NCBI GenBank assembly: GCA_032821775.1
Contig: JAVLRN010000007.1
Location: forward strand, 1,984,001 to 2,048,000
Source: Sanguinoderma infundibulare
Taxonomy: Eukaryota; Basidiomycota; Agaricomycetes; Polyporales; Polyporaceae
DNA: 64,000 nucleotides
Reading direction: 5' to 3'
In this document: positions 51,825 through 62,762 of the stretch, in pieces
Numbering within the stretch: the stretch's first letter is position 1
How the letters are laid out: every line of letters starts with the position of its first letter
Made by a program: the position numbers and the translations under genes
Notes under the pieces: generated by a model
Databases searched by the model: none
What the model saw: the letters and a program-made list of their open reading frames with translations, nothing else
What the model was told of the DNA's origin: nothing

Positions 51825-53881
51825 ATGGACCGACAACGACGTGGGGGCCCGCCGCACCGACGACAAAGCTCGCTCCCGTCCAGCCTCCATCGGTTGATGG
51901 TTCCGGGCCCTCCCCAACCTCGCAGGCGCACGACCCAAGGGGAAATAGCAAGCTCATCGGTGTCGCCGTGGCCAGAGGAGCCGGAGGATCCGTGGAGGAA
52001 CACCTTCCCCACCAGCGGGCATCCCATCTCATCAACCCCAGGTCAGCCACTCCCCTCGCTCATGCTCAGACGAGCAGTCTTCGATGGCGGCGCGGAGAGC
52101 AGCGAGAGCGAAGAAAGCCGGGGAGCGAGCCAATACCCTGCGTCCGGGACTCCTGGCCAAGATGCTGGTGCTGCTATGCTTTCGATCCCCCACCCGCCCG
52201 CCAGAGGCATCGTTCGATCCGATCCGGTGTATTATGCGTCAATGCTCGCACACTCAAACACTTTCTCTGTCCCACCTCCAGGTCCACCTCTCCCGCCCAT
52301 TTCCTGGGCTCCACCAGAGGAGGCCGCAGGCCCGTCGCGCGCCGCGCCGCGGCTCGGTCCGGATAGGAGGGATCCGCCGTCATTTTATCCCATTCCGCAG
52401 CAGGATACGCGACGTTTTTCTGCTCCGTCGCCACCACTCGCAGGACCGTCGCGACTGCACGGGGATCCTCCGACAAGTCCTATCAGGCGCAAACATCGAC
52501 GTACGAAATCGCAGGCTGCGATACCCGCGCCGGAGGCCGTCTACCCATCCGGGAGTCAGCCCATCGACATACCATGGCACGCATCGAGCGATAACACGCA
52601 CGGTGAGTCCTCTGCTTCCGGATCGCGTCTAGATGCGTGAATACAAGCCGAGCAGATGTGGGGAGCCCTACTCAGGCGCCACCATCAGGGTTCCCTGTCG
52701 ACCACTGGGCGATGCGCCCCGTTCCTCCACGCCCGCCGGAAGGTGCAGACTTTCCGCGGCGGACATCCGAGGGGGGTCCTTCGTCCGTGTTCCCCGAAAA
52801 CTACAGCGTCGCGGTTGGCTCGACCGCCTACCATGTCACGACATTGGTACCGCTCCGGACGACCGCAATCGTTTCGCCCACCGAGGAGTCGGTGCACACA
52901 TCGGTATCTTCCGCGCCTAGCCCCCAGTCCCCGAGGTTCCCTGGTTCAGCCACCATCTCCTCCCACGGCGCCCAGGCTCTGGAATCCGGCTCGAAGCCAA
53001 AGACTGCGAAACGGACAGAGTCCGAGGGTTCAGTGAGCGGCTTGGGAACGAGGCGACGGCGGGGTAGGGCAGAGAAAGAGAAGGAGAGCGGGAGTTCGGA
53101 GAGCTCTGAGCGCGCGCACGCGCCGAAGTCGAAGAAGACGTTGATTGCCTGTCATTTCTGCCGAGGTGAGCACCGACTCGAGTCGTGGACTTATCTGCGA
53201 CCGTTCCAGCCTCTTGCACGAGGAGCGAACTGACGTCTTCGCATCGGGACGGTAGCCCGGAAGCTACGCTGCGACGGACAGAAGCCGTCGTGCGCGAACT
53301 GCACTCGGCGCAACAACCCATGCACGTACGAGCAGCAGCCGAAGCGGCGGGGGCCTGGCAAGACACCGAAGGGGGCGAAGTCAGGGCGACAGGGACAGCG
53401 GGCGAGGGCGAGCATCAGCGGGCCCGAAGCGACGGGGCGGGGACCGGGAACGGACAGAGGCCCCAGCCCGCCGGCGGCCGGGGGGCGGTTGGGAGCAGTG
53501 TCTGTCAGTGCGCCGCCGGGCCCGGGCCTGACAGCTTCGTTCCCATATACGCGATCGGCATTCGAACCACATCTGACCGGACCAGTGCCCTCGTACCCCG
53601 GGTTCGCCTACCGTCCGCCGTCGCCCTCGTCGTCATTCAGCGCCGCGTCCGTTCCATTCACCTTCCTCAGCGTCCGCCCCGGCCCGAGGCGGAGTGCCGC
53701 CTCTGCGTCCGAGAGCGTCCAGTCGTCGACGACCTCCTCCGCGCCCTCCGTCCCCGACTCCGAGGACGGCGGGCACACGGACATCGCGGACGTCGAGCAC
53801 GTTGACATGGACGAGTTCCATCGCGGGCCCCAGCCAGGACCGCTGGAGGAGCCCCGGAGCGAGCGCCCCGCCGGGACATGA
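51825..53881 (+). CDS. Zn(II)2Cys6 transcription factor
   Basis: Three exons: 51825-52602, 52656-53165, 53256-53881; 637 aa. The binuclear cluster lies centrally at residues ~425-452: CHFCRARKLRCDGQKPSCAN then CTRRNNPC, giving C-x2-C-x6-C-x6-C-x2-C-x6-C, preceded by a basic Lys/Arg/Ser patch. Flanks are Pro/Ser-rich and disordered; no fungal-specific transcription-factor domain is seen. An intron splits the finger right after CxxCR in phase 1, as in both fingers of the neighbouring GTPase fusion. The C-terminus is acidic (EDGGHTDIADVEHVDMDEFH), a possible activation region. Likely a nuclear DNA-binding regulator; targets unknown. Confidence 0.85.
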
Positions 53882-55387: not shown

Positions 55388-58300
55388 ATGAACTCCATCG
55401 ACCACCGCCATCGACGCGCTGAAATCGACCATGACCACCTCCTCTACGAACGCCCTCAACTAAACGCCAAGCACCACCACCAACGCTGTCTAACTCACCC
55501 TCCCTGCGCCGACAGGATGCTAGCCGAGGAGCCCTCTGCGTACACACTAATGGTCGCTGGCCGTCGCACAGGCAAGACTTCCTTCCTCCGCCTCCTCCTC
55601 GACACCAGCAGCGTATCCTCCTCCGTCACCCACGACCAGCTCGCGTCCGTCGCCAAGTTCGTCCAGGGCTGCAGTGGTCACACCGCGCATGTCCGGTCCG
55701 TGTCTATCGACATTGACCTGGCGCCCGACGAGGTGGACGAGGAGCTTCCCCTGACCCTGACCCTCATCGACACGCCTTCGTTGGACTTCGAGGACGAGCC
55801 CTCGTCCCAGCGCGCCCTTCAGGAGATCCTCCGACACGTCGAGTCGCGGTTGGGAGAGAGTTTGGACAATGCGAGTGTTCCGCTGTTAAGCGCCCATTTC
55901 ATCCTGACGTCTCCCGTTGGCGCTACAGGATCGCAAGGCCTTTGCCGGCCACCACCTTGTACATCTGTACGTCCCCCTTTTCATTTCCATCTCGCATATC
56001 ACCCTAGTCCGCACCCTCTCTTGCCCTCGAGAGCACACGCGCATCAACTATGTCCGTCTCCCCGTCCGGGGCACTTCGGTCATCTTAAGCGATCCTCACG
56101 CGTCACGGAACTGGGGCCGTAGAGCCGGACTTTAAGGCTTCGCTCTCACCCTTGGCTTCCTCCCCTTGAATTCATGCCGTCACCGCGAGCGGGCCTTGTG
56201 CTGTTTTGAGCTCGACGGGGCGGCGTGCGTTCAATGTGGCTCGTCCGAGATCTTCGGTCCCTATTCGTCCCCGTTTCAGGCGGGCGCTGTACAGCGCGAG
56301 CTCTCTCCTCCAGAGCCCGACGCCCCCGATCGTTGCTATATGTGGCTTCTAGTGTTTGCCTTTGCCGTCCTACGTCCGTGTTCCGCGCTCTCCCGGCTTC
56401 CCTTGTTGATGGTGGATGGCCGGCATCACTTCCCGCTGCGATGGAACAAGTGCGGAGCGATCCCTCGGCAGGAGACTCGTTCCTCACTTCCCAAGCCTCG
56501 GGAACTTGCGCCTTTGGAGACACCTCGTCGCATCTTTTTCGTTTCCTCTGCGGAACCGTGAGCACTTCAGAAGTCCAGGCTTTAGATGTCATGTGGACGC
56601 AGGCCGATGGATCTCGGGGATTCCGCAATGCTTGAGGGAATCTGGGGCGATGACGCTTTAATTGGCAGAACCCGCAGTTCGGCGGCTCGCTGCGCGTACC
56701 GGACGCCCAGCGATTCCTCGACTTCTTTAAAGGGATGACTGTGTCGTCAGAACACCAACGCGGGAGTGATGATAGGCCGGGATTAGCCGATGAGCTGGTA
56801 GCGTGCATGAACGGACTTTATGACAACAGTCCGAGACGCCATGTTTTGCGACTCTCGACCTGCGTGGTGTGGGGTACTGGATTGCTAACCGAATGTCTTT
56901 CGTTGCAGATGTGTTTACTTCCTGGATCCGGACTACATAGTGTCGCCCTCCGTGCAGGCGCCGCCCGTCCCTCTTGTGCCTCGTGCACGTACCAACAGTC
57001 TTTCGACCCATGAGTCCGAACCTGTCATCCTCGAACCACCCGTCACCAACAACCCTCTGCTGTGTCGACCTATCCTCCCATCCTCCGACATCACCGCCAT
57101 ACGCCGTCTATCACAGCGCGTCAATGTCTTACCTGTTTTAGCCCGTGCAGATACTCTGACGACTGACCGTCTCACTGCGGTGAAGATGGCTATTCGCAGA
57201 GATCTTGCCGAAGCGGGTATCGGTTTCGGCATCTTCGATCTCGACATCCCCTTGTATGCACAATTGGAGTCGAAGGTCGCGAAGAACAAATCCGAGAACG
57301 GCTTTATCAAGCACCATCTCAACGGCAACACCAACTCGCCGCCCTCCACACCCATCACACCGACGCTGTTGCGGCTGCCGTTTTCTTTGATTTCCCCTGA
57401 TATCTATTCGCACAGCGATGGAGTCAATCGACCTCCGTTGTCCCGCCACGAGCTTGTGCACCAATACGCTCCTTCGAAACAAATCACCATCAAAAACCAG
57501 TCGACACCGAAAACCGCGCTTGGCAGGTTCGTGAGGAATTACAGGTGGGGATCGCTCGACGTCATGGATGCGAGCCATTGCGAGTTCCTTCACCTCCGCG
57601 GTGCTGTCTTCCATCACATGGAGGTATACCAGCTGTCCCATGCTCTCTGCTTAGCAACAATGTACTGACGCGCCTTCCCGACGCCTGCAGACCCTGCAAA
57701 AGTACACGAGGGAGTACTTGTTTGAGAAGTTTAGGGCCGAGGTGCAACCCGCCCCACCACCCCCCGTCCGCTCGTCGCAACAGCCGACGCGAGTCGACAA
57801 CCGCCTACCACCCATGCGCACCTCTCGCCCTATCCTCGCCATCGATACTACCCCAGCTCCTGCGAATGGGAACGGCCATGTTTCAATGCCGCGTTCAGGT
57901 ATCGTCAATGGCCATGGCGAGCAACTATCTGCACAGATTCTCTCCGCTGCAGCCTTGGCGGAGCTCTCTCCGAAGGCAAATTCGTTATCTCGTAAGCCGG
58001 AGCTGTTTTTTTCTCTCGGTTCGCCGCTCACGTCTTCTATTTCCCTAGGATCCCAGCGCCAGCGCGCGAAAAAGATTACGGTTGCGTGCAACTTCTGCAG
58101 ATGTAAGTTCCGGTCTGCTCTTGCATTCAATCGGAGCGCGCGTTCTCACTCCTGCTCGGACGCAGCGAGGAAGCTCAAGTGCGACGGCGGCAGGCCGGCA
58201 TGCGGCCAGTGCTTCAAGCGTTCGAACCCGTGCGACTACACGGCGAGCAACAAACGCCGCAACTCTGCAAAGGGGCGGAAACAGTACGGCAGCGACAGCG

Positions 58301-59172
58301 AGGGTGACAGCATCGAGGACGGCACGGCCGACCTGGATCCCTCTTCCAATTCTCCCGAGCTGTCATCGTCCGCTCCGCACTCCCGAAGAAGCTCGAACGT
58401 CAGCATGCTTCTGACGGACACGCTTCCCCCCCTGAGCGCCGCGGTCGAGCCACGCGAAGAGGCTCCTGCGGTTCTGCCCCCGATCAATTCTCAGGCTGTT
58501 GGGTACGGCGTGTCCTCTGGGTCGCGCCGACCTTCTCTGAACACGGAACTGCCGCCCATCGCAACCTTGTCGGCGCCTCCCGGTCCGCAGGACGAGCCAC
58601 CATCGCTGGCAGCGCTCAAGCACGCCGAGAACGCAGCGTCACGACGTCGCACATCATCCAACACGTCGGGCTCTGTGACAGGGCGCGGCGGTCGTGGCGG
58701 CAGCGGATCAAAGATTGTGGCGTGCAACTTCTGTCGAGGTACGTCGTCTCATGTTGCAGATGACGAAGATTGCGGTGCATTTTTTTTGACTGATCTCCGT
58801 CTCTCCTCGTCTGGCCACCATCTTTCATGTCGACACACAGCTCGGAAGACGAGGTGCGATGGCGCACATCCCACGTGCAGCAGTTGTTCGCGTCGATCGC
58901 TGCGGTGCAATTACGTGAACGATCCGACCAAGGCGCGGTCAAAGAGCACGACGAGCGGGGGCACGCCCCCCGATGTGTCCGCGTCCGCGTCGTCGCGGTC
59001 GTCGCCCGTTGGACCGTCGTCGGTGTCGATGACACCGCCGAGCCCGCGGTCGGTCGGGAGTCGGCCGCTGAGCTCGCACGATCCAGACATGATGCAGGCG
59101 CCGGCGAAGAAAATGCGGCTCGCGCACGAGCTGAGCACGCCGTCGATCGCGGTGCTCGCCTCCGGTCCATGA
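55388..59172 (+). CDS. septin-type GTPase fused to two Zn(II)2Cys6 clusters
   Basis: Seven exons: 55388-55870, 55929-55966, 56909-57623, 57691-57991, 58049-58102, 58166-58738, 58841-59172; 831 aa with phases closing throughout. Residues ~50-420 are septin-like: P-loop AGRRTGKTS (57-65), LIDTPSLDF (G3 as DTPS, not DTPG), LCVYFLDP, RVNVLPVLARADTL (G4 ARAD) and the septin-unique block YRWGSLDVMDASHC ahead of TLQKYTREYLFEKFR. A Pro/Gln linker leads to two zinc clusters at residues 526-553 (CNFCRSRKLKCDGG...) and 717-744 (CNFCRARKTRCDGA...), each C-x2-C-x6-C-x6-C-x2-C-x6-C. Intron 1 has a GC donor and intron 2 is 942 nt. Splitting into two genes would need an internal start with no promoter; the fusion reading is favoured. 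Predicted role: nucleotide- or assembly-linked DNA-binding regulator. Confidence 0.78.
55967..56908 (+). other. exceptionally long intron (942 nt) of the fusion gene
   Basis: The GT at 55967 and CAG ending 56908 join CAT CT with A TGT to restore HLCVYF, the family's expected sequence, so the splice is well supported. Almost all other introns in the window are 45-75 nt. A minus-strand ATG frame of 220 codons (56808-56146) lies wholly inside; it is Arg/Ser/Pro-rich with no recognised domain. The extra length may be an old insertion. Confidence 0.6.
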
Positions 59173-60405: not shown

Positions 60406-62762
60406 ATGTTCTCCTTCCGCCGCAAGCCCGGCAAAAATGCCGAGGACACCTCGCCCATTCGTACCTCGCCCTCCCTCCCCGAGCTCTCCTCCCAGGGCAT
60501 CCCATGGCCCAGCAACCTCGTCGACCTTTCCCAGCTCCCCCAGGACCCACCTGTCCCCCGCGGCGCCGCCAAGACGTCGTTCACGACCGACACTGTGACC
60601 CCCGTTCCATTCCACAAGCCGTGGTCCTCCCCCGGGAAGGCGACTGACAGCCCCACGGGCCCGCCGATCGCGTCTTTGTACCTCTCCCACCCACCGTCCG
60701 CGTTCGAAGCCCGCAAGGTCAGCACCAACTCCACTCGCCAACGCGCGAGCCAGAGGCGCAGCAACAGGAATCCAACCACGTTCAACCTCATGGTGCGTGC
60801 AAACTTGTCTGGTCCACCATCCATGTTCGGTCGCTCACCTCGCCGTGCTCGCTGTCGTCATGCATACGCCTAGGTCGCTGGCGCGCAAGGCACGGGCAAG
60901 ACTTCGCTTTTGCGCCTTATCTTGGACACCGCAGACGTCTCCCCCACGGCCACCGCAGACCAGAAGGTGGCCATGGACCGCTTCCTCCGCGGCTCCCCCA
61001 AGCGTACGGAGGCCATCCAGTCTGCGTGCGTCGAGATTTGCGAGAGCAGGTACGACAGGCTGCTGCTCTCCGTCATCGACACACCCGGCCTCGACTTTCA
61101 GGAGGGCCACGAGCTCAAGCTGGAGCGCCAGGTGTCGACGATCGTCAAGTACCTGGATTCGCAGTTCGCAGACACTCTCAACGAGGTGCGTAGCTGCCTC
61201 TGCTCCCAAGTACATCGCGTCGCTGTGCGAACGACTGGCAGTATGCGTGCCTGGGATCTGACTTCTCGTGCAGGAATCAAAGGTCGTCCGTCAGAGCAAG
61301 GGAGACCAACACATTCATTTGTAAGTCCCGAGCCTGCTTCTAGCGACCTTCCGGATCACCCGCTCACTCCCCATGCCCATGCAGATGTATCTACATGATT
61401 GATCCTTCGTCCGTCATGACAGAGGCCGCACGTCGCGTCCTGTCATCCTTCCCCACAAAGGTCCGCTCGGAAACGACCATCTCCTACAAGCCCCCAGACC
61501 TCACGTCCATGTCGGACGAAACCGACTCCGATGACGAGGAAGACGAGAACGGCCTCACCATGTCCCCCGCAGACATCCGCGTCATCCGCCGGATCGCCGC
61601 CCGCGCCAACGTTCTCCCGGTCATCGCTCGCGCCGACTCGCTCACGGACACGAAGCTCTCTGCCATTAAGAAGGTCGTCCGCCGCGACCTCCGCACCGCG
61701 AACGTCGACTTTGGCGTGTTCGGGTCCGTCGTGGACGACGCGAAGAGCTCGTCCAATGGACACGGACACTCGAACGGCCACGACCAGGCGACCAGCAGCG
61801 AGGAGAGCGCCGACGGCGCGGCGCACACCAACGGCAACGGCCACGCCTCGCCTGAGCCGAGCCAGGAGAACGCCAAGGACGAGCACGAGGAGACGGAGCA
61901 GCAGCGGTCCTCCCGCCCCATCATCAAGCTACGCGCGACGCGGCTCAAGCGCCGCCCGTCCCGCTCCCGCTCCCGCCTCGAGATGTCCGAGATGGCGCTC
62001 GCGGAGGACCCGACCGCGCTCGAGCTCGTGAACGACACGGAGAGCGTCGCGAGCGTGCGCTTCTCGGCGCACATCGTCACCAAGACCGACCTGAGCGCGA
62101 ACATGCCCTTTGCGCTCATCACTCCCGAGCACTCGCGGCGGCGGGGGGCCCTGAAGGCCTCCCTCGGGTTCCCAGAGTCCGCGTCCGCAAGCGTGAACGG
62201 CCACGGGGCCCCGGCGGAGGGGCACGCGGCGGACCGCAGGGACTCGATCGTCGCGCCGTCGGAGGACGGGCATGCGCCGCCCTCGATCGCTCAGAGCATG
62301 ATCATGTCACCGGTCAGCCCGTCGTCCCCGTCGTCGCTGCGCTACCCGTACCTTCAGGGCCCGCCTGCGGACCTCAAGGGGGTGTTCGTGCGCCGGTTCC
62401 GGTGGGGGACGGTCGACGTGCTGAACCCGGAGCACTGCGATTTCGCCGCGCTGCGGACTGCGGTTATGTCGACGCACATCAAGGTTCGCTCCCTCTTTTT
62501 GCTTATGTTAGTGCCGCTTCGTGGAGTTGACGAGCTGATCATCGTGCTTGTGTTTGTTGCAGCTGCTGAAAATCCGGACCAAGGAAGTGCTGTACGAGAA
62601 GTACAGGACGGAGAAATTGCTCGCCAGGCGCGCTACACGCAACATCAGCGAGGACGAGACTCGCAGGTTGCTTGAAGGTGCGTACTGTCAGCCCCAGGTA
62701 GATTCTTGGACTCCCCACCCATGTTCTAACATGCCTGCTCTGTTGCAGATTTGGGATTGTGA
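60406..62762 (+). CDS. septin-type GTPase with long disordered inserts
   Basis: Six exons: 60406-60792, 60874-61185, 61274-61320, 61385-62483, 62563-62677, 62749-62762; 657 aa. The N-terminal ~125 residues are Ser/Pro-rich. The G domain has P-loop AGAQGTGKTS (K138), DTPG (198-201), LCIYMIDP, NVLPVIARADSL (ARAD 330-333) and the septin-unique block RRFRWGTVDVLNPEHCDFAA, ending VLYEKYRTEKLLARRATRN. About 150 low-complexity residues (NGHGHSNGHD, then acidic and Arg/Ser-rich stretches) are inserted after ARAD. Length and layout differ from the core septins Cdc3/10/11/12. It is a paralogue of the GTPase half of the preceding fusion; filament formation is inferred only. The last exon codes just DLGL. 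Confidence 0.88.

Follow-up and report, generated by a model that had tools for sequence, protein, structure and literature searches.

The window analyzed here, 64,000 nucleotides (nt) of contig JAVLRN010000007.1 from Sanguinoderma infundibulare (positions 1,984,001 to 2,048,000, forward strand), contains on its plus strand three genes in tandem: a zinc-cluster gene (Z), a fusion gene (A) and a septin gene (B). Gene A, the main subject of this analysis, joins a divergent septin G domain, through a linker, to two complete Zn(II)2Cys6 clusters. Its exons (55388-55876, 55929-55966, 56909-57623, 57691-57991, 58049-58102, 58166-58738 and 58841-59172) are separated by six introns of 52, 942, 67, 57, 63 and 102 nt, with GT-AG borders throughout. 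A first-pass annotation, made from the DNA letters alone, had predicted a single exon chain running from a septin-type GTPase into two zinc clusters. This chain was borne out by the splice model and by the presence of both Pfam domains; the protein is continuous as predicted, with a length of 833 residues instead of 831. The start at 55388 agrees with N-termini such as MNSxDHRxRR, a loose pattern found in 40 of 120 homologues, and numerous other homologue models begin later, close to the ATG equivalent of 55517.

The gene A protein matched the Pfam profiles Septin (PF00735; 1.7e-30, 106.7 bits for a cut-off of 26.2, in three stretches) and Zn_clus (PF00172; 2.9e-15, in two stretches), and a scan with E values up to 0.1 returned no further domain. 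Both cluster 1, CNFCRSRKLKCDGGRPACGQCFKRSNPC, and cluster 2, CNFCRARKTRCDGAHPTCSSCSRRSLRC, exhibit the spacing CX2CX6CX6CX2CX6C, which falls within the six-cysteine pattern CX2CX6CX5-12CX2CX6-8C. The fungal_trans domain (PF04082), usual but not required in Zn(II)2Cys6 factors, was not detected by Pfam in gene A or in eight homologues. Basic residues flank cluster 1, the cluster sequences are Gal4-like, and one family profile matches septins as well as the solved structures of Gal4, Hap1 and Put3. We infer DNA binding and a nuclear location of the protein only from these domain families.

Gene A is a real and conserved fusion, encoded as a single protein. The end of the septin domain and the beginning of the linker lie together in exon 4, and a genomic frame of 505 codons (57655-59172) crosses introns 4-6, remaining open because these introns (57, 63 and 102 nt) are stop-free multiples of three. 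Of 7994 candidates scored in a homologue search, 192 were homologues; the 120 ranked highest were listed, and all of them (120/120) carried Septin and Zn_clus together. This search confirmed the earlier suggestion that the fusion is conserved in Agaricomycetes and contradicted the possibility, raised with it, that the homologues are always two separate proteins; transcripts stopping behind the septin block, the other outcome named there as a refutation, were not encountered. The six-cysteine pattern was counted twice in 108 of the listed homologues, three times in two merged models and once in ten. The coding frames of two homologues, P0092 (820 residues, longest contig of 2592 nt) and P0090 (830 residues, longest contig of 2752 nt), take up all but 129 and 259 nt of these contigs. 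As six introns like those of gene A cannot fit in these remainders, we read both as spliced transcripts spanning the two halves; their sources carry no such statement.

The listed homologues include species of Ganoderma (Polyporales), Serpula (Boletales), Russula (Russulales), Heliocybe (Gloeophyllales), Jaapia (Jaapiales), Athelia (Atheliales) and Coprinopsis (Agaricales), so that the fusion spans no fewer than seven orders of Agaricomycetes. No fusion from outside the Agaricomycetes appeared among the names of the matches listed (best 120 of 192). P0074 from Volvariella volvacea (A0A0K1IK10), an entry with no contig attached, bears the database name "Zinc finger transcription factor"; its sequence runs from DIP straight into GKTSFLRLL, without the early P-loop portion of its relatives.

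The septin domain of gene A contains the G1 P-loop and a G4 motif of the (A/N)KxD type, in which arginine replaces lysine, as in many gene B homologues. The P-loop, the switch-I threonine and the G4 aspartate are conserved among gene A homologues, while only the R and W are invariant in the RxYxWG motif, present as RNYRWG at residues 385-390. The predicted model of a gene A homologue displays the septin fold, distinct from that of other GTPases, and aligns best with septin 9 bound to a guanosine triphosphate (GTP) analogue, a match tied by the guanosine diphosphate (GDP)-bound form. The septin DxxG motif (DTPG) is altered in gene A: the G3 of its 117 readable homologues reads DTPS in 113 and DTPA in 4, with no DTPG (0/117), whereas DTPG is found in 113 of the 114 readable gene B homologues. 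This replacement of the glycine by serine or alanine in 117 of 117 sequences makes a GTP/GDP switch doubtful despite the retained P-loop and switch-I threonine, and speaks against a simple switch by GTP hydrolysis. The first-pass annotation had imagined a regulator controlled by nucleotide or polymer state; the nucleotide version is not supported as stated, while control by polymer state may be possible.

The linker, otherwise variable, harbors a conserved block, RP(I/V)LAIDT, in an alignment of 115 rows (R460 95%, P461 97%, L463 95%, I465 97% and T467 93%). Using the PxIxIT pattern P[^PG][IVLF][^PG][IVLF][TSHEDQNKR] given in PMC5017699, a fit of this block was obtained in 106 of 118 usable sequences (121 sequences, including the gene A model itself among the 118, with three skipped; the rows are related), which marks a putative calcineurin docking site. 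Beyond the block, 16 more matches were found in 11464 linker residues, and shuffled linkers gave a match of any kind in 625 of 5900 cases. A loose basophilic pattern lies between the two clusters in 108 of 111 sequences, and 107 of the 111 end in a KKMR-like tail; both were counted without a chance control. According to the structure model, the long linker is probably disordered.

The coordinates of these features and of the neighboring genes are collected in Table 1.

Table 1. Features of gene A and of its tandem neighbors, in window coordinates.
Feature	Position	Strand	Description	Basis
Gene A	55388..59172	+	Septin-type GTPase domain and two Zn(II)2Cys6 clusters; seven exons, 833 residues
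P-loop (G1)	55556..55579	+	AGRRTGKT	Sequence
G3 motif	55769..55780	+	DTPS; DTPG in gene B and in the core septins of this genome	Sequence, homologue comparison
Intron 2	55967..56908	+	942 nt, interrupting the septin-coding part; well above the 52-102 nt of the remaining introns	Splice model, genome search
G4 motif	57141..57152	+	ARAD	Sequence, homologue comparison
Exon 4	57691..57991	+	C-terminal septin helix and linker start together	Splice model
PxIxIT-like motif	57829..57846	+	PILAID, inside the linker block RPILAIDT	Pattern match, alignment
Zinc cluster 1	58087..58233	+	Split by intron 5 (58103-58165), four bases past the second Cys codon, phase 1
Zinc cluster 2	58723..58908	+	Split by intron 6 (58739-58840); intron position and phase as in cluster 1
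Gene B	60406..62762	+	Zinc-free divergent septin with DTPG, tandem neighbor of A; six exons, 657 residues
Gene Z	51825..53881	+	One zinc cluster, upstream of A; intron site as in both A clusters

Two observations concern the introns of gene A. Retention of introns 4-6 (57992-58048, 58103-58165 and 58739-58840) would preserve the frame yet disrupt both zinc clusters, and could possibly produce an off form of the protein. The long intron 2 was considered as a repeat or inserted element and rejected, its sole match in a genome search that skipped simple repeats being itself.

The association of A with B extends beyond this genome. For 61 of 64 species names present in both lists, A and B were found on contigs of identical size, taken as the same contig; the sizes differ in Dichomitus squalens, Serpula lacrymans and Lentinula raphanica. 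The sample behind this count was chosen for shared names and is not random: it took 73 rows from the 120 listed for A and 66 from the 120 listed for B. Two more pairs, the one at 5153 nt and P0062 with P0353, are left out of the count, contig size itself having served to pair them. Locus numbers of A and B are adjacent in Trametes cinnabarina (g3/g4), Fibroporia (02691/02690), Gelatoporia (112111/112110) and Tricholomella (002864/002863), and lie 12 apart in Amanita polypyramis and 7 apart in Cerrena zonata. In the merged models P0035 and P0044, A continues into a B-like septin, and in P0048 and P0062 a Z-like zinc cluster precedes A. The zinc pattern was absent from the listed gene B homologues (0/120). 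P0110 (A) and P0341 (B) are both on contigs of 5153 nt, possibly as joined transcripts or close genes. A further zinc cluster with the intron site shared by Z and A was noted at L026 (G000 C10).

Exon matches revealed four core-type septins in the genome beyond A and B; C3:1148340 was not accepted as a further septin, its match spanning the P-loop-to-G3 stretch only. In the resulting tree, A, B and the core septins formed separate groups with supports of 100, 95 and 100, A and B falling outside the core four (septin groups 1-4). The core sequences of this tree are approximate (exon matches joined, introns partly kept, C1b without its P-loop part), and its root, hence the sister status of A and B, is not settled. 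Identity was 37% between A and B, 26-28% between A and the core septins, and 31-33% between B and the core septins. By its septin fold and motifs, and its position outside the core, gene A recalls the group 5 (AspE) septins, with which it also shares, according to PMC6323724, a short N-terminus and the lack of a C-terminal coiled coil, none being seen in the structure model. Unlike them, it lacks the G3 glycine and has inserts and two C-terminal zinc clusters. This likeness is one of description, and A is at most a candidate member of group 5. PMC4624876 describes antisense transcripts ahead of stipe elongation for Coprinopsis CC1G_04978, named Cc.AspE, which could be a homologue of A or B.

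Protein databases label members of the gene A family with both domains. No paper on a septin-Zn(II)2Cys6 fusion or its function was found among the papers listed in searches of the open-licence PubMed Central literature, in line with the first-pass annotation, which knew of no functional description, and a text search of the septin-diversity papers PMC6323724, PMC11238149 and PMC8801916 gave no occurrence of "zinc" or "transcription factor". The architecture is thus already visible in databases and, as far as that literature was searched, undiscussed. Among zinc-cluster regulators, gene A resembles Gal4, Hap1 and Put3 in its cysteine spacing, its basic flanks and its profile match to their solved structures, but differs from them in that its clusters number two and lie towards the C-terminus, and in carrying a septin domain in place of the usual fungal_trans. 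Like Crz1, as described in PMC8457507 and PMC5017699, it has a PxIxIT-type pattern in a predicted disordered region beside zinc modules; unlike gene A, Crz1 has another type of zinc finger and no septin domain, and the contact of A with calcineurin is putative.

By sequence, we class the product of gene A both as a zinc-cluster protein and as septin-like, its G3 being altered; neither GTPase activity nor a function as transcription factor is claimed as demonstrated. Our preferred reading, to which we assign a probability of about 0.55, is that the protein is a DNA-binding regulator that uses its septin-type domain to assemble or to be anchored. The septin domain would replace the usual dimerization and regulatory part of zinc-cluster proteins and would bind nucleotide chiefly for structure. 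Its septin interfaces may let the protein pair with a second copy of itself or with B, and such pairing may fix the distances between several zinc clusters bound to DNA or prevent the protein from entering the nucleus. Judging by the linker block and the basic patches, phosphorylation and calcineurin, not GTP hydrolysis, would control whether it can reach DNA.

Several observations weigh against this reading. A septin-only search gave 235 matches, and among the best 120, which were listed, Zn_clus was present in a single one, the truncated model P0022. Ends were examined in 24: 17 end just beyond exon 3, four reach the linker and stop there, the end of the septin domain is missing from two, and P0141 runs in a single frame from septin into CNFCR. 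We regard the 17 as genomic stretches that still contain introns; P0148, included here, is a named model. Seven of the 24 are named models without zinc clusters, ending in the linker (P0121, P0123, P0124 and P0126) or earlier (P0139, P0140 and P0148), and a septin-only product from the gene A locus is possible. For Taiwanofungus, a fused model of 839 residues (P0030) and a zinc-less one of 588 residues (P0121) share the locus tag AcW2_007443, a difference due either to alternative splicing or to annotation. Given the fused relatives in Termitomyces (P0069) and Tricholoma (P0060), we take most named septin-only models to be annotation or splice variants. PMC5017699 reports the PxIxIT pattern for 36% of the proteins predicted in C. 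neoformans and describes it as poorly conserved between fungi, and the sequences behind our own count are not independent. The sole basis for calling the linker disordered is low model confidence. The P-loop pattern was found within the first 250 residues in 108 of 120 homologue models, two of these being chance matches; some models start late, skip the P-loop or have it further on. Zinc clusters, finally, can have structural roles.

This last point leads to an alternative that we consider unlikely, in which the zinc clusters would tether a septin-type assembly to chromatin, or vice versa, without gene regulation, for example in nuclear positioning or division. Cep3, a zinc-cluster protein of the yeast kinetochore, does match the family profile, but as the weakest of the 55 listed matches (8.3e-5), behind Gal4, Hap1 and Put3, and the conserved linker block hints at regulation. 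A nucleotide-switched transcription factor, in which GTP loading or hydrolysis alters assembly and thereby DNA binding, is in our view rather improbable: the conserved P-loop, switch-I threonine and G4 aspartate would suit it, as would the best alignment to septin 9 with a GTP analogue, tied though it is by a GDP-bound form, but the DxxG glycine that 113 of 114 readable B homologues keep is lost in all 117 readable A homologues. Septins are cytoskeletal, cortical, filament-forming GTPases, and the protein could act as one of them, its zinc clusters serving for protein contacts or metal sensing. The septin fold and the retained R and W interface-type residues agree with such a role, against which stand the basic residues beside cluster 1 and the Gal4-like cluster sequences, and we hold it to be very unlikely. 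That two genes were wrongly joined by annotation or reader, as the seven named septin-only models and the homologue models merged with neighbors might suggest, is rejected on the shared exon, the open frame, the 120 listed homologues that are all fused, P0092 and P0090, and the conserved linker block.

Returning to the DNA-binding regulator, a more specific and speculative version, itself improbable at present, would be a relay, peculiar to mushrooms, that links cortex and nucleus: A would be held with B in a septin-type assembly at septa or tips, its linker would dock calcineurin, and calcium-triggered dephosphorylation would free it to occupy paired CGG-type sites through its two zinc clusters. 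If true, this relay would make A a DNA-binding septin, a class of regulator undescribed in the open-licence PubMed Central literature searched. The conservation of the fusion in at least seven mushroom orders implies that a probable gene regulator acquired a cytoskeletal module before these orders diverged. With one gene, one neighbor and clear point mutations, gene A offers a genetic handle on whether the state of cell shape or septum acts directly on transcription in multicellular fungi.
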